Positions 759 through 15,217 of a stretch of 64,000 bases of DNA are shown piece by piece (the first letter of the stretch is position 1; every line of letters starts with the position of its first letter). The stretch lies in NCBI RefSeq assembly GCF_000214705.1, contig NC_015573.1:74501-138500 (forward strand), given 5' to 3'. The position numbers and the translations under genes are program-made. This DNA is from Desulfofundulus kuznetsovii DSM 6115. Lineage in GTDB: Bacteria > Bacillota > Desulfotomaculia > Desulfotomaculales > Desulfovirgulaceae. The notes beneath the pieces are model-generated. The model had not been told where the DNA came from and did not search any database. It was given only the letters and a program-made list of their open reading frames with translations.

Positions 759-1628
759 GTGGAGGGAATCAGGGTTGGAGACATAGTGGGGCGGATTTCA
801 TACGGGTGCGATATCTTTTTTAAAGTAGTGGAGTTAACTGTAAAAGAAGATGGTAAAAAAAGTGCCCGTTTAAAGGGGCTGGATAAGCGCCTTTGTGCCA
901 CTGCGCCTTTAGAGGACCTGCGCAAGTTTGAACCGGCCGAGGTTGCTGCTTTCTGGCATTCGTTTATGACCAAAAATCACGAACATATGAAACGCATTTT
1001 TAAGCGCCGGGAACAGGACCGGCAGCGTTTGGTCCGGAGCAACGACGTGGTTTCCAATTTAGGCACTTTTGATGTTCCGGGTTCGGTGTTGCATATAGAT
1101 GGCGATGGTGACTACCTGGACCTCTGCCTCACTACCTACCGGCAGCTGGGCATACCGGCTTCCGGCTACCACATCGATGAGGAGAACCAGCCCGGGGTGG
1201 TTGCCGATCTGTTGCAAAAACACCGCCCCGATATACTGGTGCTTACCGGTCACGACGGTATTGAAAAGGATACTCAAAATTTTTCTGATTTGAACGGTTA
1301 CCACAACTCCCGTTATTTTGTGGAAGCGGTAAAAAAAGCACGCTTGTATGAAAAAAGCCGGGATGATCTGGTTATTTTTGCCGGGGCCTGCCAGTCGCAC
1401 TATGAAGCCATACTGGAGGCGGGCGCTAACTTTGCCAGTTCACCCCACCGGGTACTCATTCATACTTTTGATCCGGTGTTTGTGGTGGAAAAAATTGCTT
1501 ATACCTCAATATATGATCAGATCTCTTTAAAGGACATTATAGCCGGGACCATAACCGGGTTTCCCGGAATCGGCGGTGTGGAAACCAGGGGAAAATACCG
1601 CCTCGGGCTGCCAAAATCACCCTATTGA
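759..1628 (+). CDS. yabG: Sporulation-specific protease YabG
   Basis: The 289-residue length is almost exactly that of Bacillus subtilis YabG (about 290), and the N-terminal pattern MEGIRVGDIVGRISYG and the central VLHIDGDGDYLD and FAGACQSHYEAIL motifs are typical of peptidase family U57. The GACQSH segment carries the conserved Cys and His. YabG is made in the mother cell and trims spore coat proteins such as SpoIVA, SafA and YeeK-type substrates. The start is a GTG with a strong GGTGAGGAGG site 8 bases upstream. It opens a plus-strand run of envelope and spore genes, including SPOCS proteins that could be substrates (inference). Confidence 0.93.
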   Translation: MEGIRVGDIVGRISYGCDIFFKVVELTVKEDGKKSARLKGLDKRLCATAPLEDLRKFEPAEVAAFWHSFMTKNHEHMKRIFKRREQDRQRLVRSNDVVSNLGTFDVPGSVLHIDGDGDYLDLCLTTYRQLGIPASGYHIDEENQPGVVADLLQKHRPDILVLTGHDGIEKDTQNFSDLNGYHNSRYFVEAVKKARLYEKSRDDLVIFAGACQSHYEAILEAGANFASSPHRVLIHTFDPVFVVEKIAYTSIYDQISLKDIIAGTITGFPGIGGVETRGKYRLGLPKSPY

Positions 1629-1721
1629 TAGGTACCGCTTATCTCACTGCTAACAGGTTGCGTCACCCCTTCCAGTCCTTTTGCATATGATGGCACAAGG
1701 ACCTTGAGGAGGGGTTTTTTT

Positions 1722-2726
1722 ATGGAAAAGTATTTTCGCGTCCTGAAAAAATCCCGGGAAAAGCTCTTGCGGTTGCCCAATGTAACCGGCGTAGGAGTTG
1801 GCCTTAAACAGGTGTCCGGCGAAACCACCAATCGCCCCGCCCTCATTATCTTTGTAAAGAAAAAGGTGCCGTCCGACGGCCTGGTACGCGTACAACAGGT
1901 GCCGGCTTACATTGACGGATTGCCTACCGATATCATAGAAATCGGCGAGGTCAGGCTGCTTTCCCTGCGTACAGGTAAAGAGCGGCCGGCGCAGCCGGGA
2001 ATGAGCATCGGCCACTATAAAATCAGCGCCGGTACCTTTGGTGCGGTGGTGAAGGACCGGGTCACCAAGGAGCCGCTTATTTTAAGCAACAACCACATCC
2101 TGGCCAATGCCACCGACGGGAAGGATGGGCGGGCGGCCGTGGGGGATCCCATCCTGCAACCCGGTCCCCATGACGGCGGCCAGGCCGGGGACCGCATTGG
2201 CACGCTGTTGCGCTTTTCGCCCCTGTTGCGCAGCATCCAGGAGGCCGAATGCCCGGTGGCAGAAGCTCTGGTCAGGGCGGGCAACCTGCTGGTCCGCCTG
2301 GTCAGGCCCCATTACCAGTTAAAAATGTTCCAGTATTACCGGGGCGGCAATATTATCGATGCCGCCGTGGCCCGCCCGGACAGCCCAGGCTTAATTAACG
2401 ATGAAATTTTAGAGATTGGGAAGGTGGAAGGTGTGGCCCGGGTGGACCCAGGTCAGGGAGTGATGAAAAGCGGTCGTACCACCGGGATTTCCGAGGGTAC
2501 CGTTACCGCTGTTGGGGTGACCCTGGAAGTGGAGATAGGTAATGACGAAAAGGGCTGGTTTACCGACCAGGTGGTCACCGATATGAGTTCCCGGCCCGGG
2601 GATAGCGGTTCCTTGGTGCTGGATCGCGAAAAACGGGCCGTGGGGCTTTTATTTGCCGGTTCTGATAAATACACGGTTTTTAACCGCATTGAACAGGTGC
2701 TCTCCCGGCTGGAGGTAGAGTTTTAG
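1722..2726 (+). CDS. Trypsin-like serine protease (Nal1-like), cytoplasmic or spore
   Basis: A 334-residue protein with a chymotrypsin-fold catalytic set: His125 in LSNNHIL, Asp213 in NIIDAAVA and Ser295 in RPGDSGSLVL. The N-terminal 90 residues (LPNVTGVGVGLK) resemble the leading segment of bacterial relatives of plant NAL1 peptidases. There is no signal peptide, so it may act in the cytoplasm or forespore. The ATG at 1722 sits 8 bases after TTGAGGAGGGG. An upstream in-frame TTG at 1704 overlaps that site and is less likely. The substrate is unknown. The neighbouring yabG makes a sporulation role possible but unproven. Confidence 0.82.
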   Translation: MEKYFRVLKKSREKLLRLPNVTGVGVGLKQVSGETTNRPALIIFVKKKVPSDGLVRVQQVPAYIDGLPTDIIEIGEVRLLSLRTGKERPAQPGMSIGHYKISAGTFGAVVKDRVTKEPLILSNNHILANATDGKDGRAAVGDPILQPGPHDGGQAGDRIGTLLRFSPLLRSIQEAECPVAEALVRAGNLLVRLVRPHYQLKMFQYYRGGNIIDAAVARPDSPGLINDEILEIGKVEGVARVDPGQGVMKSGRTTGISEGTVTAVGVTLEVEIGNDEKGWFTDQVVTDMSSRPGDSGSLVLDREKRAVGLLFAGSDKYTVFNRIEQVLSRLEVEF

Positions 2727-3164: not shown

Positions 3165-3356
3165 AAATAATAACAAAATCCCCCAGTATACGCATAAGAT
3201 GTATAATCAGCCAGTAAAGGATGAAATCTGGATCTGCTGCTAATTTCATGGCAGATTGCGTCGAAATAGCGCTTTTGCCGTAAAGTGGCGATTTTTGATA
3301 GATTAGATAAAAACGCCCGGGACAACCAGGGCGTAAAAAAGAAAAGGAGTGTGATC

Positions 3357-4400
3357 ATGAACAAAAGCTTGAAGTTGCTGGCTGGTGTGGTTTTAGGTGT
3401 GTTGTTTTTGCTGGGGCTGTTTCTTTCCCCGTCCCTGGCCCAGGCCGCCGTCCCCTGCGGTTTTAACTATTTAGACGGCAGTGAGGGTCAAAAAGTTCCC
3501 GCTCCAGAAACCACCACGGCTGCCCGGGAGACAGCCCCCACCCCGGAAGAGAGCCGTATGCTGGCCCTGGTTAACCACCAGAGGAGCAAAAAAGGCCTGC
3601 CGGCCTTCCGGACCGATTCCCGGCTGGTGGAACTGGCCCGGCAGAGGGCCGGCGAGATGGCGGACAGGGGTTTTGGCGGATTGTCCGGCTCACTGCCCCA
3701 GCTGTTAAAAGCGGAAGGGATCAGTTACACTTATGCCGCCCAAACCCTGGTTCTGGCCCAATCGGTGGACAGCGCCTACCGGGCTTTAATTAAGTCTGCA
3801 GGCTACCAGCAGGATATACTGGGCACCAGATATGACCGCATAGGAGTGGGCGTGGTCCGGCAGGGTTCCAGGCTATATATAGTGCAGCTATTGGTGGGTG
3901 GACAAGGCGGGTTGTCACAGCAGGAGCCTGCATCTCAACCTGCACCTCAGCCCGCGCCTCAACCTGCGCAACCGCAGCCTGATCCACGGCCGGTACCGCA
4001 GCCCGGGCCGGTAAGCGGCCTTACGGTGGACGAGCAGCAGATGCTCCAGCTGGTCAACCAGGAGCGGGCGCGTTACGGTCTGGCTCCGTTAAAGGTAAAC
4101 ATGGAGCTGGTGAAGGTGGCCCGCCTCAAAGCGAAGGATATGGTGGAAAAAGACTATTTCAGCCACACCTCTCCCACCTACGGCAGTCCCTTTGAAATGA
4201 TGCGCCAGTTTGGCATCACCTATCGCTATGCCGGCGAGAACCTGGCGGGTGCACCCACAGTGGAGATTGCCCATGAAAACTTGATGAATTCCCCCGGCCA
4301 CCGGGCCAACATCTTAAACGCCAATTTTAAGGAGATCGGTATCGGAGTGGTTCCCAGTCCCCGCTACGGCAAGATTTTCGTGCAGATGTTCGTTGGTTGA
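3357..4400 (+). CDS. Secreted protein with two CAP/SCP (YkwD-like) domains
   Basis: 347 residues. The start ATG at 3357 follows AAAAGGAGTGTG. Residues 1-31 form a signal peptide ending SLAQAA. A first CAP domain (about 60-180, ESRMLALVNHQRSKKGLPAF) is degenerate and lacks the usual HxxxF and HRxN positions. A Pro/Gln-rich linker (about 185-220) leads to a complete second CAP domain with LVNQERARYGLAPL, FSHTSP, AGENLA and SPGHRANIL. In Clostridia and Bacilli such proteins are found on the cell or spore surface, and their biochemical activity is not settled. A Rho-independent terminator follows directly. Confidence 0.85.
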   Translation: MNKSLKLLAGVVLGVLFLLGLFLSPSLAQAAVPCGFNYLDGSEGQKVPAPETTTAARETAPTPEESRMLALVNHQRSKKGLPAFRTDSRLVELARQRAGEMADRGFGGLSGSLPQLLKAEGISYTYAAQTLVLAQSVDSAYRALIKSAGYQQDILGTRYDRIGVGVVRQGSRLYIVQLLVGGQGGLSQQEPASQPAPQPAPQPAQPQPDPRPVPQPGPVSGLTVDEQQMLQLVNQERARYGLAPLKVNMELVKVARLKAKDMVEKDYFSHTSPTYGSPFEMMRQFGITYRYAGENLAGAPTVEIAHENLMNSPGHRANILNANFKEIGIGVVPSPRYGKIFVQMFVG

Positions 4401-4456: not shown

Positions 4457-4544
4457 TCTGGGGGATGGCCAAAATTCCGCACATTAATTGGCACGGCTCA
4501 TATATATATTTATAGACCACTCTTTGAAAGGAGGAGTATGCCCC

Positions 4545-6089
4545 ATGGTTGGAACCGCCGCACCGGCCACGGAACGGTTGCGGGTCAACCAGGTGGTTAG
4601 CGAAGACACGCAACAGGTCGTGGTTCGCGGCAAAATCACCGTACCCGACCCAAAACCCGACGTGCAAAAGATCCTTTCCACAGATAAATCGGCAAGGATC
4701 AAGAAAATTGAACTGGTTCCGGACAAGGCAATTGTGGAGGGGACCCTGACCCTGCAGATTGTTTACGTGGCCTTTGAACCCTCCCAATCGGTACACCACA
4801 TGCACCAGCAGCTCTCCTTCACCGCTTTTGTGGAACTTCCCGGGGCCAGGCCGGGCATGGATGTCACGGCCAGGGTTTCGGTGGAAGATGTCAGCATCAC
4901 CCGCAGTCCCGGCGACCCCCGGCAGTTTGATGTGACCGCTATCCTCAGTGTTTTTGTCAAAGTGACGGAGATGCAGGATGTGGACGTGGTTACCATGTGT
5001 CCCTCCGGCGCCACCTGCGAGATGGATACCATTAAGGTGGCCCATGTGGTAGGCAGCGGGACCAGGCAGGTTATCGTCAGCGAGGAGTTTAATGTACCGG
5101 ACGAAAAGCCGCCGGTAGAAAAAATCCTGGAAGTGGATGCCACCGCCGAAATTACCGACAAGAAGATCATTAAAAATAAAGTCATCATTGACGGCACGGT
5201 GACCATCCAGGTGCTGTACGTCGCTGCCGAGCCCGACCAGCCCGTCCACCAGCTCCACCGGACCTTCCGCTTCAGCGATTTTGTGGAGGTAACCGGAGCC
5301 GAACCGGATATGGATGTGCGGGTGGATGTCAGGGTGGAAAGTGCCGATGTGGATATCCTGGACGGCGACCGGCTGCGGGCCGACGTGGTCTTGATGCTGA
5401 CGGCCTTTGTTACCGAGCCCAGGCAGGTCAATGTCATTACGAAGATCACCGGTGTCCAGGCCACCATGACCAGGCTCAAGATTGATCATGTGGTGGGAGA
5501 GGACAGCACCCAGGTGGTGCTCCGGGATACCTTTGAGACTCCGGACCCCAAGCCCGATGTAGAGAAAATCATCGACGTTACCGTCCAAGAAGTTAAAGTC
5601 ACCGAAACAAAGATTGTTAATGATAAAGTGATCGTCCGCGGCTTTGTGGAAGTGCACGTGGTTTACGTGGCCAAAAAGCCGGACCAGGCCGTCCACGCCC
5701 TGGAACGGCGGCTGAATTTCCGTACCTTTGTGGAGATTAAAGGTGCCCGGGAAGGCATGGACGTGGATGTCCGCCCGGTGGTGGAGTTTGTTTCTGCCGA
5801 TGCCGAGGGACCAAACGTCACCCTGGAAGTGGTGCTCAAGGTAACGGTCAAGGTGACCGAGTCGCTGCAGCGGGATGTGGTTGTCTCCGTGGCTCCCGCC
5901 CCTCCCGTGGTCTGCCCGCCGGGTCAAACCATTGATTATGTGGTCCAGCCCGGTGATACTTACTGGAAAATTGCACAGCAGTTCGGCACAACGGTAAAGG
6001 CTATCGAAGAAGCCAATCCGAACAAGGACCCGCAAAACCTGCAGCCCGGTGATGTAATCAAGGTTCCCTGTCCCCCTGCCAAGGGTTGA
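4545..6089 (+). CDS. SPOCS (DUF3794) triple-repeat protein with C-terminal LysM
   Basis: 514 residues. Three homologous SPOCS/DUF3794 units of about 150 residues each can be aligned by their repeated openings: RLRVNQVVSEDTQQVVVRGK, IKVAHVVGSGTRQVIV and LKIDHVVGEDSTQVVLRD, with shared DPKPDVxKI and VxIxVxYVA blocks. The C-terminal 45 residues (YVVQPGDTYWKIAQQFGTT...LQPGDVIKVP) are a LysM domain that binds peptidoglycan-type glycans. SPOCS domains are found in spore coat and cortex-associated proteins of the SpoVID/SipL type, SipL also ending in LysM. The ATG at 4545 follows AAAGGAGGAGT. A spore-coat morphogenetic role is the likely reading. Confidence 0.87.
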   Translation: MVGTAAPATERLRVNQVVSEDTQQVVVRGKITVPDPKPDVQKILSTDKSARIKKIELVPDKAIVEGTLTLQIVYVAFEPSQSVHHMHQQLSFTAFVELPGARPGMDVTARVSVEDVSITRSPGDPRQFDVTAILSVFVKVTEMQDVDVVTMCPSGATCEMDTIKVAHVVGSGTRQVIVSEEFNVPDEKPPVEKILEVDATAEITDKKIIKNKVIIDGTVTIQVLYVAAEPDQPVHQLHRTFRFSDFVEVTGAEPDMDVRVDVRVESADVDILDGDRLRADVVLMLTAFVTEPRQVNVITKITGVQATMTRLKIDHVVGEDSTQVVLRDTFETPDPKPDVEKIIDVTVQEVKVTETKIVNDKVIVRGFVEVHVVYVAKKPDQAVHALERRLNFRTFVEIKGAREGMDVDVRPVVEFVSADAEGPNVTLEVVLKVTVKVTESLQRDVVVSVAPAPPVVCPPGQTIDYVVQPGDTYWKIAQQFGTTVKAIEEANPNKDPQNLQPGDVIKVPCPPAKG

Positions 6090-6121: not shown

Positions 6122-7201
6122 ATGCCCATCGAGTATGTCTATACCGAGCCGGAAGAGGTATTGTGCCTTAAGATCAAGGTGCCGGTGGTACTGGCCGAGG
6201 AAGAGGTGCAGGTGCTGGTGGACAGCACCGTTACCCTGCCCGAGCTGGCCAAGAAGGTGGATCACATCGACGCCCGGGTGGAAGACCTGGAGGCAGAGCC
6301 GGTATTCATTCACGAGAGCATCAGCACATGGTTCCCCAGGATCAATAACGAATGGAAAAACCATTTCAAGGACATTGTCGGACTTGTAGCCGTGGTAAAA
6401 AAGGTTATTGTCAGCGGGGTGCTGCACAAGCAAATCTTTTATGTCAACAACAGGGACGAAGTGAAACATTTTGCCGAAAACGTTCCTTTCACCAAGATGA
6501 TTGAGCTCAAGGAGCCCCAGGCTGTGCTCCGGGAAGATGATGTAATGGTGCAGTTTCCCAAACCCAAGTTTGATATTACCTGGGAGCTGGTACGGGCCAG
6601 CCGCCTGCACCAGACCGGTGTGATTATCGTGCGGATCAAGGTGGTGGAAGAGCGGCAGATCTTCGTGCAACTTTGCCCGTCTCCCGAACTCTGTCCTCCT
6701 GGCAACCTGCTGGAAGACCCGGGGTTTGAACAATGGGCGGGCAACGTGCCCATCTTCTGGGGCGCCACGACCAACGTCGCTCCCACTACCGTCGCCCGTA
6801 CTGGCAGTTTTGCCGCAGAACTGGGAGTCACGAATCCCGCAAGCACCGCGGCCATTTTCCAGACCGTGCGCCGGGGTATAGCTCCCGCCAGGGCTTACAG
6901 GCTGACCTTCTGGGCCCGGGAAAATGTTGCTCCCGTTACCCCCGTCAGTGCCTTCAACCTGGTGGCGGAGGTGCGCTTCTTTGACCGCAACGGTATGCAG
7001 ATTGACGGGGCCATCCAGAGCATTGGCAGCGTGAACATTCCTGATAACAACTACCAGCAGTTTACCCTGAACATACCTGTTTCCCCCGCCGGTGCCCGTA
7101 CTGCTCTGATTCGTTTCACCTTTAACCCGGCTACCGGAAACACCAACACGGTGAAAATCGATGATGCCAGCTTTGAGTGTATCGGAGGTTTTCCAACCTG
7201 A
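6122..7201 (+). CDS. SPOCS-domain protein with C-terminal carbohydrate-binding-like domain
   Basis: 359 residues, preceded by a perfect AAAGGAGG site. Residues 60-190 match the SPOCS pattern (ESISTWFPRINNEW, KKVIVSGVLHKQIFYVNNRD, ENVPFTKMI), and the N-terminus is a short beta-rich extension. After a CPSPELCPPGNLLEDPGFEQW hinge, residues about 200-359 look like a CBM4/9-type jelly roll (FWARENVA, FFDRNG, FTFNPA, VKIDDASFE). The domain pairing suggests a protein that docks in the spore envelope and binds glycan. It is 32 bases downstream of the SPOCS-LysM gene and probably in the same operon. Confidence 0.75.
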   Translation: MPIEYVYTEPEEVLCLKIKVPVVLAEEEVQVLVDSTVTLPELAKKVDHIDARVEDLEAEPVFIHESISTWFPRINNEWKNHFKDIVGLVAVVKKVIVSGVLHKQIFYVNNRDEVKHFAENVPFTKMIELKEPQAVLREDDVMVQFPKPKFDITWELVRASRLHQTGVIIVRIKVVEERQIFVQLCPSPELCPPGNLLEDPGFEQWAGNVPIFWGATTNVAPTTVARTGSFAAELGVTNPASTAAIFQTVRRGIAPARAYRLTFWARENVAPVTPVSAFNLVAEVRFFDRNGMQIDGAIQSIGSVNIPDNNYQQFTLNIPVSPAGARTALIRFTFNPATGNTNTVKIDDASFECIGGFPT

Positions 7202-7327: not shown

Positions 7328-7630
7328 ATGGTGTTCTTCAACACGCCCAAACTGACCCAGCAATTGCAGGAGTTACAGGAAGAAGCCCGGCGGATTGTGG
7401 TTACGAAAGAGGCACCCCAGGGGGCATTGCGCCTGACAGTGAACGGGCTGCAGCAGGTGCTGGAGGTAAGTTTCGGCCCCACTGCTCCGGCTTTAATGGA
7501 CCGGGGCGAACTGGCGGCGGTGGTCCGGGATACCTTTAACGAAGCCCTGGCCGAGGCGCGCAGGCAGCTGAAGGACGAAGTGGTCAAAATGACGGGGATA
7601 AATTTACCCCACCTGCCGGGACTGTTTTAG
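7328..7630 (+). CDS. YbaB/EbfC-like nucleoid-associated protein
   Basis: 100 residues with the YbaB arrangement: an N-terminal helix (LTQQLQELQEEARRIV), a short beta sheet (LRLTVNGLQQVLEVSFG) and a C-terminal helical arm rich in Ala, Glu and Lys ending GINLPHLPGLF. YbaB proteins form tweezer-like dimers that bind DNA. Canonical ybaB lies next to dnaX and recR, which is not the case here, so this is a divergent paralogue in a spore-gene neighbourhood. The start has GGAGGGGAAA upstream. Confidence 0.65.
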   Translation: MVFFNTPKLTQQLQELQEEARRIVVTKEAPQGALRLTVNGLQQVLEVSFGPTAPALMDRGELAAVVRDTFNEALAEARRQLKDEVVKMTGINLPHLPGLF

Positions 7631-7642
7631 GGGGGAGGTCAA

Positions 7643-8017
7643 ATGGGGGAAAAGGGGCAACTTCAGGGTCTGGAGGCAACCCTTTTTCAGTTGCTGGAAC
7701 AAAAAGGGCACTCAACGGATCCCCTTATTTTACTCAGCCTGGTGAACCTGATGGGGCTGATCAATCTCATGGGATACCGCTTCGGGACCCAGGGGCAGGA
7801 AGCAAAAGTGGAGGCCGGCGGAAAGGGTGTTACCGGGTCTTCCCGGTCCGGCAATCGGGAAACGCCTCCTCAGCTGGCCAATTTCCTTGGCAGCCTGCTG
7901 GGTCCATTAAACCCTCCCCGTTCCCCGGCAGCACCTTCCACGGAAGGAAGCGCCCCGGCCTCAAATGAAGCACCTGCCGCCTCTTCCGGTGTAAAGCCGG
8001 CTAAAGACCAAACTTGA
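7643..8017 (+). CDS. Unrecognised protein, family A copy 1
   Basis: 124 residues, no known family. Residues 9-45 hold a leucine-rich helical segment (LEATLFQLLEQK then LLSLVNLMGLINLMGY), followed by a low-complexity Gly/Pro/Ala/Ser tail. The same pattern recurs in the gene at 8780-9331, so the two are paralogues. GGGGGGAGGTCAA precedes the ATG, and the gene is 13 bases after the YbaB-like gene, so both are likely cotranscribed. Confidence 0.6.
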   Translation: MGEKGQLQGLEATLFQLLEQKGHSTDPLILLSLVNLMGLINLMGYRFGTQGQEAKVEAGGKGVTGSSRSGNRETPPQLANFLGSLLGPLNPPRSPAAPSTEGSAPASNEAPAASSGVKPAKDQT

Positions 8018-8025
8018 ATAGAAAA

Positions 8026-8057
8026 GGGGTTCCTCGTGGGGAACCCCCAGGTATTTT
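8026..8057. terminator. Bidirectional terminator between convergent genes
   Basis: GGGGTTCC pairs perfectly with GGAACCCC across a 6-base loop. T-rich sequence lies on the right (ATTTTTA) and, read on the minus strand, TTTTCTATT lies on the left. It separates family A copy 1 from family B copy 1. Confidence 0.7.
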
Positions 8058-8368
8058 TAGGGGTTTTTGTTTTCCGGCAGTTTGACGTCCGGAAACTGTA
8101 CCTCATCCGGGGGCGCCGGTTCCGGGCCTACCGGGATGTCGGCGGGCAGAAGTGTGGCGGGCTGGCTTGAGCTCGCCCCTTCGGCCAGCTGCATCATGCT
8201 CACATGCAGCGCTTCCAATCCTGCGCGCATGGTTTTAAGGGCATTCCGGGTGGCTTCAAGAAAAGAGGCCAGCTGGCTTAAACGGTCTTCCATGTCCGAT
8301 CTGGTGGATAACATGAGCAAGAAGGGGATCGAAAGCGGGTGAAACTGTCCACCGTAAAATTCCGGCAT
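8057..8368 (-). CDS. Unrecognised protein, family B copy 1
   Basis: 103 residues. A hydrophobic N-terminal stretch (HPLSIPFLLMLSTRSDME) leads into an amphipathic helix with hydrophobic residues every three to four positions (LSQLASFLEATRNALKTM), then a Pro-rich tail. The gene at 8444-8659 shares the layout residue for residue (LSTR, QLA-L, FLEAT/LLHAT, GLEALH/GMETFH). The ATG follows GGGAAAGGAGG. The function is unknown. The short hydrophobic segment could dock at a membrane or assemble with partners. Confidence 0.6.
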   Translation of the reverse strand: MPEFYGGQFHPLSIPFLLMLSTRSDMEDRLSQLASFLEATRNALKTMRAGLEALHVSMMQLAEGASSSQPATLLPADIPVGPEPAPPDEVQFPDVKLPENKNP

Positions 8369-8443
8369 TACAAAACCTCCTTTCCCTGTTTATACCAATT
8401 CTATGTTTACTGCCTTAAAGTTTGACACCATTTTCCAAAAAAG

Positions 8444-8659
8444 TTATTCCCGGCCCACCTGGCTTGAAGGGTTTACCAGACTTGCATGAAAGGTCTCCAT
8501 TCCACTGCGGAATATCTGTACTGATTGCTGGGTGGCATGGAGCAGCGAAGTCAGCTGGGCTAATTGTTGTTCCACGTTTGGCCTGGTGGAAAGTATCAAA
8601 AGGATAAGAATTAGAAACAGGGTGAAGGGGTTATTGGGCTGGAGCGCCTGGTCTGCCAC
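8444..8659 (-). CDS. Unrecognised protein, family B copy 2
   Basis: 71 residues from a GTG at 8659 placed 8 bases after AAAGGAGGAAAAG. An in-frame TTG at 8680 would swallow that site. Residues 9-25 are strongly hydrophobic (NNPFTLFLILILLILSTRP), followed by a helix QLAQLTSLLHATQQSVQIF similar to family B copy 1. It lies upstream of copy 1 on the same strand, with 75 bases between them. No family is recognised. Confidence 0.58.
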   Translation of the reverse strand: MADQALQPNNPFTLFLILILLILSTRPNVEQQLAQLTSLLHATQQSVQIFRSGMETFHASLVNPSSQVGRE

Positions 8660-8779
8660 CTTCTTTTCCTCCTTTCGCAATGCTTTTTCTAAGTTATACT
8701 ACGTCGTAAAAGCCTATCCGGTGACAGCAACTTTTGCGCAGGAGGTGAATATACCTGATAGAGGAAGGGGGATTAATGA

Positions 8780-9331
8780 ATGGCTGAAGAAAAGGCAGCG
8801 GGACATAACCTGGAACATATACTTTTTTCTTTGCTGGATTATCAATCAAAACAGGGAGCAACCCACGATGACACCATGCTGATGCTCGGGCTTTTGAACC
8901 TGCTGGGGATCGTGAGCTTGATGAATAAGCAAATGGGCGGCGTAGTTTCCCGGGCGGTAATGGCGGACCCCAATCCCATGCTCAATACCCTTTTACAGAT
9001 GATGGGCGGCATGCCGGGCGGCCCGCCGCCGGGTCAACCGCCCACCCCGGAGCAGAATGCCCCTCCTTTACCGTTAAACCCGGCCCTGCTGATGGCGCTG
9101 ATGAACCAGCAGCCGGGACAGGGGCCCGACCCGGCCGTGCTGCTCAGCCTTTTGGGCAGCATGATGGGTGCTCAGGGGGCACCACCCCGGCGGCCGCCGC
9201 CGGCAGTTCCGGCAACCATGGATGCAAAGAAAACCGTTTCTCCTTCCGCTTCTCCTCCCGCCGGGGGTGGCGAAGTAAAACAGAAAGTGGTGAAGTGGGG
9301 TTCACATCTGGAAAAAGAAAAACGGGCCTGA
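8780..9331 (+). CDS. Unrecognised protein, family A copy 2
   Basis: 183 residues. The N-terminal region LEHILFSLLDYQ and LMLGLLNLLGIVSLMNKQ matches family A copy 1. The remainder is Met/Pro/Gly/Gln-rich low complexity (LLQMMGGMPGGPPPGQPP) with repeated LLxLLxxMMG blocks, then a Lys-rich end. It diverges from family B copy 2, the two starts being about 120 bases apart, so a shared control region is possible. The start ATG follows GGAAGGGGG. A strong terminator ends it. The low-complexity sequence suggests a structural or coat-like protein (inference only). Confidence 0.58.
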   Translation: MAEEKAAGHNLEHILFSLLDYQSKQGATHDDTMLMLGLLNLLGIVSLMNKQMGGVVSRAVMADPNPMLNTLLQMMGGMPGGPPPGQPPTPEQNAPPLPLNPALLMALMNQQPGQGPDPAVLLSLLGSMMGAQGAPPRRPPPAVPATMDAKKTVSPSASPPAGGGEVKQKVVKWGSHLEKEKRA

Positions 9332-9424: not shown

Positions 9425-9770
9425 GCCGCCCCGGTTAGTTATGCGACAGTATCTTAAAGGATACTGTTGCAAAACCAGAAATTAGATGGGCGGCGGTCGT
9501 CCCTTAAGGAGCGACATTGCGGAGGGCCGGATACGAAACACGGCGCTGCCGAGGTTAGCAAACCGGCAGCGCGAATCGCGCTGGTACCAGTATCGATATA
9601 ATGATTGGGTTACTTAGGCTGTTACTATTCATAAGATAAAGTATACTTCCGGCGCATATGCAGCGCTGCCAGGTTTGCTCCGAGGCAAGCCGATGTTTCG
9701 TCCGGCCCGGAGCACGGAGCGACGGGGGACGACCGCCGCCCCGATAGTTAATTCGACAGTATCTAAAGGG
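9425..9770. repeat. Structured non-coding repeat region (direct and inverted repeats)
   Basis: The gap 9382-9782 has no convincing gene. A 36-base unit at 9425-9460 (begins GCCGCCCCGGTTAGTTATGC) recurs in direct orientation at 9735-9769. The left unit folds into a hairpin (GCGACAGTATC with GATACTGTTGC). Between the units, 9488-9544 is the approximate reverse complement of 9689-9742 (shared GGGCGGCGGTCGTCCC and CCGGA-CGAAACA blocks), and GCGCTGCCG...CGGCAGCGC at 9543-9572 is a perfect 9-bp hairpin. It could be a small non-autonomous mobile element, or a structured leader of the HMA-like gene just downstream. Confidence 0.55.
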
Positions 9771-14485: not shown

Positions 14486-14502
14486 AGAACAGGAAAATGC
14501 AG

Positions 14503-14546
14503 TTGTATTCAGTGATGTATATTTATATAATATACACAGGGTATAT
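14503..14546 (+). promoter_or_regulatory. vapBC promoter and likely autoregulatory operator
   Basis: TTGTAT at 14503-14508 and TATAAT at 14526-14531 are spaced by 17 bases, a good sigma-A promoter. An inverted repeat ATATAC(5)GTATAT at 14530-14546 overlaps the -10 and start region, where a VapB dimer would be expected to bind. Confidence 0.6.
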
Positions 14547-14562
14547 ACAAGGGGGTGATGGC

Positions 14563-14838
14563 TTGGAAAAAACCAGACTAACCCCAATCCGGTTTCCAGT
14601 TGACCTGCTGCTTGAGCTGGACAGGTTTGTCGGTCAGGGGCAGAGGAGCAAGTTTATTATTGAAGCCACGCAAAAGGAATTGCTCCGGTTAAAACAAAAG
14701 AAGGCTTTACAGTCGACGGCCGGAATTTTCAAGAAAGAGGATTACCCCGGTTTTGCCGGGCCGGAAGATGTTTCCTCCTGGGTTCGCCGGTTGAGGGAGG
14801 AAGCGGAAGCCCGGAGGAGGGAGATTTTTGGCCACTAA
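14563..14838 (+). CDS. vapB: Ribbon-helix-helix antitoxin of VapBC pair
   Basis: 91 residues from a TTG that follows AAGGGGGTGATG. Residues 4-38 (RLTPIRFPVDLLLELDRFVG...RSKFIIEATQKEL) are a ribbon-helix-helix DNA-binding domain. The C-terminal half, with SSWVRRLREEAEARR, is the expected toxin-wrapping tail. It overlaps the PIN toxin gene by 11 bases. Antitoxin and toxin together probably repress their own promoter. Confidence 0.8.
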   Translation: MEKTRLTPIRFPVDLLLELDRFVGQGQRSKFIIEATQKELLRLKQKKALQSTAGIFKKEDYPGFAGPEDVSSWVRRLREEAEARRREIFGH

Positions 14839-15217
14839 TGGTTTTTTACTGGATACCACGATTTTAATAGATTTTTTACGCGGCAGAAAAGAAGCAATAG
14901 ATATGCTTAACAGACTGGTTGAGGCAGGCCCCCTGGCATGCTGTCCGGTTACAGTGGCCGAGGTTTTTTCGGGAGCAAGGCCCGAGGAACTGCCTAAAAT
15001 AGAAGAATTTTTCGAAGCCCTGCTTTTTTATCCTGTTGGATACAAAACAGCCCGTCGGGCCGGTTTGTACCGGAGGGAATACGGGAAAAAAGGCATCACC
15101 CTGAGCATTTCGGATACCATTATTGCCGCGGTGGCGGTGGAAAATTCCCTGACTCTGGTTACAAAGAACGTGAGGCACTTTCCCATGCCGGAACTGGCTG
15201 TAATTGAGCACGGTTAA
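14828..15217 (+). CDS. vapC: VapC-type PIN-domain toxin ribonuclease
   Basis: 129 residues from a TTG inside the end of the antitoxin gene. The acidic metal-binding residues of PIN nucleases are present: Asp in LLDTTILIDFL, Glu in VTVAEVFSGA, Asp in SISDTIIAA, and the closing TKNVRHF. VapC toxins cleave tRNA or rRNA. The gene lies directly before the large defence operon. This is a common neighbourhood, and the pair may stabilise the island (inference). Confidence 0.85.
   Translation: MATNGFLLDTTILIDFLRGRKEAIDMLNRLVEAGPLACCPVTVAEVFSGARPEELPKIEEFFEALLFYPVGYKTARRAGLYRREYGKKGITLSISDTIIAAVAVENSLTLVTKNVRHFPMPELAVIEHG

Follow-up and report, generated by a model that had tools for sequence, protein, structure and literature searches.

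What do the four short open reading frames do that lie behind a run of spore genes in Desulfofundulus kuznetsovii? We analysed a window of 64,000 nucleotides from a single-contig genome of 3,601,386 bases (C1:74501-138500). A sequence-only reading of this window had picked out two unrecognised small protein families, each duplicated, and had taken them for co-acting partners, perhaps in the spore envelope or in a small secretion unit. We call these families A and B. The gene order is YabG, a NAL1-type trypsin-like protease, YkwD/CAP, SPOCS-LysM, SPOCS2, a YbaB paralogue, A1, B1 and B2 on the minus strand, and A2 (Table 1). YabG acts as a spore-coat processing protease. The SPOCS-LysM frame is listed from position 4488, and by inspection the ATG at 4545 is its likely start. 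SPOCS2 carries a weak CsxC-like N-terminal part (NF045794) and a weak NTTRR-F1-like C-terminal part (NF033675), both far under cut-off.

Two further features of the window lie downstream of the block. Between A2 and a CopZ-like gene there is a MITE-like repeat of about 300 bp (9460-9765) with an inner perfect inverted repeat of 16 bp (9488-9503/9726-9741). This repeat has 41 matches in its own genome, itself and fragments included, and 16 other copies span about 245 bases or more at 81-94% identity. At 14497-15217 a VapC-like toxin gene (62.6 bits, cut-off 80) comes after a small gene, and the two are probably a toxin-antitoxin pair.

Table 1. Features of the spore-gene locus, in window positions.
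Feature	Position	Strand	Evidence
YabG, sporulation peptidase	759..1628	+	NCBIfam TIGR02855 equivalog 346.7 bits (cut-off 270.4); Pfam PF05582 E 5.2e-119
Trypsin-like (NAL1-type) protease	1704..2726	+	PF25608 33.1 bits (cut-off 27); PF13365 26.1 bits, just under cut-off 27.6
YkwD-family CAP-domain protein	3285..4400	+	TIGR02909 spore_YkwD 264.9 bits (cut-off 171)
SPOCS-LysM protein (SipL-like)	4545..6089	+	PF12673, 3 stretches, E 6e-68; LysM E 1.5e-15
Second SPOCS protein (SPOCS2)	6122..7201	+	PF12673 27.5 bits (cut-off 23.6)
Diverged YbaB/EbfC paralogue	7328..7630	+	PF02575 51.7 bits (gathering cut-off 25.5); TIGR00103 33.9 bits (cut-off 49.45)
A1, family A, 124 aa	7643..8017	+	
B1, family B, 103 aa	8057..8368	-	
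B2, family B, 71 aa, GTG start	8444..8659	-	
Putative sigma-K-type promoter of B2: AC, 17 nt, CGTAGTATA	8695..8722	-	1 mismatch to CATANNNTA
A2, family A, 183 aa	8780..9331	+	
C-terminal VVKWGSHLEKEKRA of A2 (tryptophan motif)	9287..9328	+	

We found that the four frames are real. They lie where the sequence-only reading had placed them, at 7643-8017 (+), 8057-8368 (-), 8444-8680 (-) and 8780-9331 (+), and only the start of B2 is amended, most likely to the GTG at 8659, behind AAAGGAGG, rather than the TTG at 8680. No internal stop was found in any of the four reading frames in five of five congeners, and pN/pS over A1, B1, B2 and A2 in these congeners ranges from 0.05 to 0.62. A1, B1, B2 and A2 are genuine genes under purifying selection.

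The division into two families, each duplicated, was supported by profile-profile comparison. A direct comparison of the two window sequences shows only a weak likeness between A1 and A2 (38% over 51 aa, E 0.048). As profiles, the N-domains of the A1 and A2 types match with 98.4% probability (E 6.5e-15) and the B1 and B2 types with 99.3% probability (E 1.7e-20), and all four A-versus-B comparisons gave at most 0.5%. On these profiles A and B are unrelated to each other. Both families are indeed unrecognised: A1, A2, B1 and B2 match no family at E up to 1 in Pfam and NCBIfam, and ten distant A and B proteins gave no match over cut-off there. Cysteine is absent from all four window proteins. When searched by sequence against known structures, A gave no match, and B matched 14 distinct sequences at E up to 1 (best 0.0009), mostly coiled-coil, designed-helix or other helical stretches; we read these matches as helix composition and rejected them as homology. 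Residues 51-98 of A2 also match an 849-aa frame elsewhere in the genome, through a Pro/Gly/Met stretch that we took as low complexity. We found no description of A or B in the literature, where the families have no searchable name and our coverage was mostly of papers outside subscription. As far as searched, A and B are a conserved, undescribed pair of families.

The plus-minus-minus-plus block is kept among relatives. All eight other genomes of the family have A1-B1-B2-A2 with YbaB upstream and SPOCS-LysM in the same locus, and in six of these eight SPOCS2 lies directly upstream of YbaB. The earlier reading would have taken a lack of homologues elsewhere, together with a lack of expression, as a sign of spurious frames. 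Homologues do exist: profile searches matched A in 89 and B in 97 of the 113 genomes of the order, and a class-wide search for B returned the same 113 genomes. Both families occur in 87 of them, A only in 2, B only in 10 and neither in 14. Among the hits listed, 84 genomes have both families; the two are at most 3 kb apart in 54 of these and not so in 30, many on separate contigs, and two A genes lie within 3 kb of each other in 42 of the 45 genomes with at least two. The arrangement varies. Four of five loci read in family f4 are A1-B-A2 with a single detected B; two loci read in f16 have B genes convergent with A-YbaB-SPOCS2-SPOCS; and in f15 g40 genomes B stays beside SPOCS2 with no match to A. 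The f9 genome G065 has A and B at unlinked places, the A locus with two YbaB copies. The linkage fits the proposal that A and B may be co-acting partners; the genomes that have one family without the other count against it. In f9 a B1-type gene stands apart from the A locus (for example L180 4985-5431, in G065), at about 10 kb from spoIVA in six of the nine genomes with a match, at 20-22 kb in two and on another contig in one.

We also compared the distribution with that of SpoIVA. Since 104 of the 113 genomes are SpoIVA-positive, the correlation of A and B with sporulation by this measure is weak. The two SpoIVA-negative genomes that are at least 90% complete (G039, G048) have neither A nor B; six of the nine SpoIVA-negative genomes have A or B, and all six are less than 90% complete. 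Sporulation in general does not depend on the module, since eleven SpoIVA-positive genomes, eight of them of f8, are without A and B.

The protein encoded just upstream of A1 belongs to the YbaB/EbfC superfamily. It resembles this nucleoid-associated family in scoring over the Pfam cut-off and differs from it in falling under the cut-off of the canonical YbaB equivalog TIGR00103, in lying outside the canonical clade and in being embedded among spore genes. In a tree of 48 rows, 34 block YbaB copies are split from 14 canonical YbaB by one 99/95 branch. These block paralogues (window 7328-7630, L178 6047-6662) form their own group, with mostly longer branches than canonical YbaB; G065 (f9) and G050 (f7) have two of them each, and nine of ten f9 genomes have three PF02575 matches in all. 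Across the order PF02575 is matched in 112 of 113 genomes, with a second, weaker match in most genomes that have A. In all 39 genomes with a listed second YbaB, this copy is no more than 1.5 kb from A, and the eight f8 genomes, without A and B, have one PF02575 match each. In f5 and f15 g38, genomes that have A and B match PF02575 only once, which argues that the YbaB paralogue is dispensable.

We then looked upstream of the B genes for the pattern AC-(15-18)-CATANNNTA, whose letters we take to be those of the sigma-K consensus. From the 140 B matches we kept 79 distinct proteins whose genes have 90 nt or more of upstream sequence, and these fall into 38 clusters under 50% identity; these rows are related sequences, thinned by identity alone. 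A site with at most one mismatch was present at 54 of the 79 genes (expected 8.6; maximum 16 in 100 shuffles) and an exact site at 15 (expected 0.5; shuffle maximum 3). By cluster the counts were 25 of 38 (expected 3.9; maximum 8 in 200 shuffles) and, for exact sites, 10 of 38 (expected 0.26). The commonest dinucleotide-spacing pair in the 38-cluster set was AC at exactly 17 bases, in 21 of 44 sites. Family B as a whole has a sigma-K-type promoter above chance. Simple sigma-E, sigma-G and sigma-A patterns, whose letters are likewise our assumption, showed no clear enrichment upstream of B.

Neighbouring genes were compared in a different locus set (72 B genes). There SPOCS_LysM genes had an exact site in 15 of 36 cases (expected 0.4) and A genes were weakly enriched (12/76 vs 4.6 expected). 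YbaB, SPOCS2 and CAP genes were not clearly enriched (6/46 vs 3.6, 3/32 vs 1.9 and 5/24 vs 2.8 expected), YbaB and SPOCS2 being mostly internal to the plus-strand run, and DMT, ZIP, HMA, LDT and CAP neighbours had no exact site and no clear excess. In the window only B2 has a fair match, with AC at 8722-8721 and the -10 block at 8703-8695; both are identical in the window and in five of five congeners, and a one-mismatch site is expected by chance in about one in nine upstream regions (8.6/79). The window SPOCS-LysM gene has no sigma-K-type site at up to one mismatch, and the match at B1 is doubtful and looks spurious. Sigma-K promoters of Bacillus subtilis are described as having a -35 element of five bases and a -10 element of ten, 14-16 bases apart (PMC517825). 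The final stages of coat and exosporium assembly in C. difficile are described as most likely under sigma-K (PMC3789829).

Outside the order we used a sample of 398 genomes of the phylum, with no more than 13 first-look candidates scored in any one genome by the first B search. Most matches of this B profile were short and lay in the hydrophobic stretch, and taken alone we would call these chance. The A profile, built from other sequences, gave weak matches near the B matches, and of 12 genomes that lie outside the order and were hit by both first profiles, 11 by our reading have the two matches within 1.6 kb. A broadened A profile matched in 88 of the 398 genomes. Outside the order 24 genomes then had both families, and in 21 of these the matches were at most 1.6 kb apart, where 0.03 would be expected; the broadened profile includes rows from some counted loci, and leaving out the source genomes gives 15 of 18. 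YbaB-like, SPOCS or CAP genes are present as well at several of these loci. In 13 of 20 loci from outside the order, chosen for having A or B matches, we found a homologue of the window trypsin-like protease, and in 5 of the 20 its gene overlaps, touches or lies within 27 bp of B. In f31, A adjoins a SleB-like gene (181.7 bits, under the cut-off of 236.5) and YpeB at locus L153, and YpeB lies about 1 kb from A at L154. An FLILILLLL-type hydrophobic motif is common to four tiny neighbouring frames at L172 5360-6617, a pattern that a cassette-like spread of the B motif would give.

Structure models were of uneven quality. In that of B2, of moderate confidence (pLDDT 74.7, pTM 0.40), a helix at 12-25 is followed by one at 30-63, and on this model B combines a hydrophobic segment with a long helix. 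Over 21 rows, mostly of the B2 type, the mean majority share is 0.80 in the hydrophobic segment versus 0.48 in the long helix. A segment that served as an anchor and nothing more would not usually be so conserved, and its packing may be sequence-specific. The mean hydropathy of the segment is 1.05 in B1 versus 2.54 in B2, and the weakly hydrophobic segment of B1 argues against a general membrane anchor. The model of A2 is poor (pLDDT 57.3, pTM 0.21) and shows a helical hairpin (6-25/29-53) and, after it, short helices in a stretch of low confidence; the Pro/Gly/Met tail is probably disordered. The motif W[DGNES]xxL lies within 30 residues of the C-terminus in 27 of 47 A proteins of at least 150 aa versus 26 of 96 shorter ones, and by reading of the ends 44 of the 47 long proteins have a tryptophan in their last 28 residues, often as KWD, KWG or KWK.

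We consider it likely, from gene context and promoters, that A and B belong to a late mother-cell gene module that builds the spore envelope, either coat or exosporium, in clostridial-type endospores, and the module is probably sigma-K-driven. The spore-envelope half of the earlier proposal has good support from the YabG, SPOCS-LysM and YkwD neighbours, by the sigma-K-type promoter at many B genes and by the A-B linkage beyond the order. Nothing points to a secretion unit, and for substrates of the WXG100/ESX kind there is no Pfam or NCBIfam match and tryptophan is absent from B1 and B2 of the window.

Such a module might work as follows. After engulfment sigma-K would turn on the plus-strand run of SPOCS-LysM, SPOCS2, YbaB and A1, with SPOCS-LysM at its head, and also B on the opposite strand. 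SPOCS-LysM would dock on the spore surface, as SipL does. B would insert its hydrophobic segment, which is short and unusually conserved, into either the outer membrane of the forespore or a hydrophobic layer of the coat, and would present its long coiled-coil-like helix, with which A could bundle through its leucine-rich hairpin. The flexible tail of A and its C-terminal tryptophan motif may then tether another coat component, be it SPOCS, a YbaB dimer or a protease substrate.

Other explanations were weighed against this one. The block could be a regulatory module, with the YbaB paralogue as a late-sporulation binder of mother-cell DNA and with A and B as its cofactors or membrane tethers, not coat parts. 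YbaB-fold families are annotated as nucleoid-associated or DNA-binding, and the second YbaB keeps close to A wherever it is listed; however, f5 and f15 g38 retain A and B with a single PF02575 match, and the neighbours are structural and proteolytic spore genes. Net charge does not decide the matter, since the ranges of block copies (-7 to +4) and canonical YbaB (-6 to -2) overlap. We regard a regulatory role as quite improbable. We think it just as doubtful that A and B help to hold SleB/YpeB, YabG and the NAL1-type protease at the spore surface as a germination or cortex module. YabG at the window locus and the recurrence of the NAL1-type protease, next to B in five loci, would suit it, as would SleB-like and YpeB genes beside A, but the SleB/YpeB evidence covers f31 loci only, and the recurrent neighbours in the order are SPOCS genes and, in most loci read, YbaB.

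Small paired genes in opposite orientation might also be toxin-antitoxin, phage or defence genes that came to lie beside spore genes by chance. This is very improbable: A1, A2, B1 and B2 have no convincing match in PHROGs (best 0.013, B1 to an unnamed phrog) and none in PADLOC at E up to 0.1, no match was found in phages (A2 and B2 searched) or plasmids (B2 searched), and the syntenic pattern extends across the order. Spurious or decaying frames, which would be of low complexity, unannotated and without a family match as these are, have next to no probability given purifying selection and profile-level homologues across the order; the stop-free frames and pN/pS values in the five congeners led us to reject them.

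The spore-envelope reading can be set beside known systems, and while families A and B are new, the kind of system is already known. SpoVM, a very small peptide of the mother cell, marks out the forespore membrane as the place of coat assembly; B is like it in the idea of how it may work only, and is longer, with a hydrophobic segment and a long helix. YjcZ-type proteins are tiny, hydrophobic sporulation proteins that share with B a short, strongly conserved hydrophobic stretch, but no such Pfam or NCBIfam model was matched by the window B proteins or by six distant ones. SipL of Clostridioides difficile is reported to bind SpoIVA through its LysM domain and to be needed for spore assembly (PMC6436350). 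The SPOCS-LysM neighbour of the block has the same domains, whereas A and B have no SPOCS or LysM match and are partners by genome position only. SPOCS2 has a weak family match to CsxC of the Clostridium sporogenes exosporium, at 29 bits far under the cut-off of 135, and A1, A2, B1 and B2 are free of cysteine, in contrast to CsxC, which is described as cysteine-rich (PMC4942563).

Little has been described of clostridial coats, and the coat proteins known so far are mostly those of Bacillus. Other firmicutes are described as likely to have coat proteins still unidentified (PMC3533761). The gain here is two defined families with a regulon predicted for them and neighbours that recur, and a YbaB paralogue where none would be expected; each of these is open to direct testing. 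The genus also has practical interest; cultures of D. kuznetsovii are reported to have survived 15 min in an oil bath at 140 C (PMC4817712). In a bolder form, which we hold to be unlikely as a whole, A, B, the YbaB paralogue and SPOCS would make up an ancient clostridial spore-envelope layer, in which a YbaB-fold dimer was recruited from nucleoid protein to scaffold, is clamped to the forespore by the sequence-specific hydrophobic segment of B, is tied by the tryptophan tails of A and is matured by YabG and the NAL1-type protease; in Desulfofundulus such a layer may add to extreme spore heat survival.
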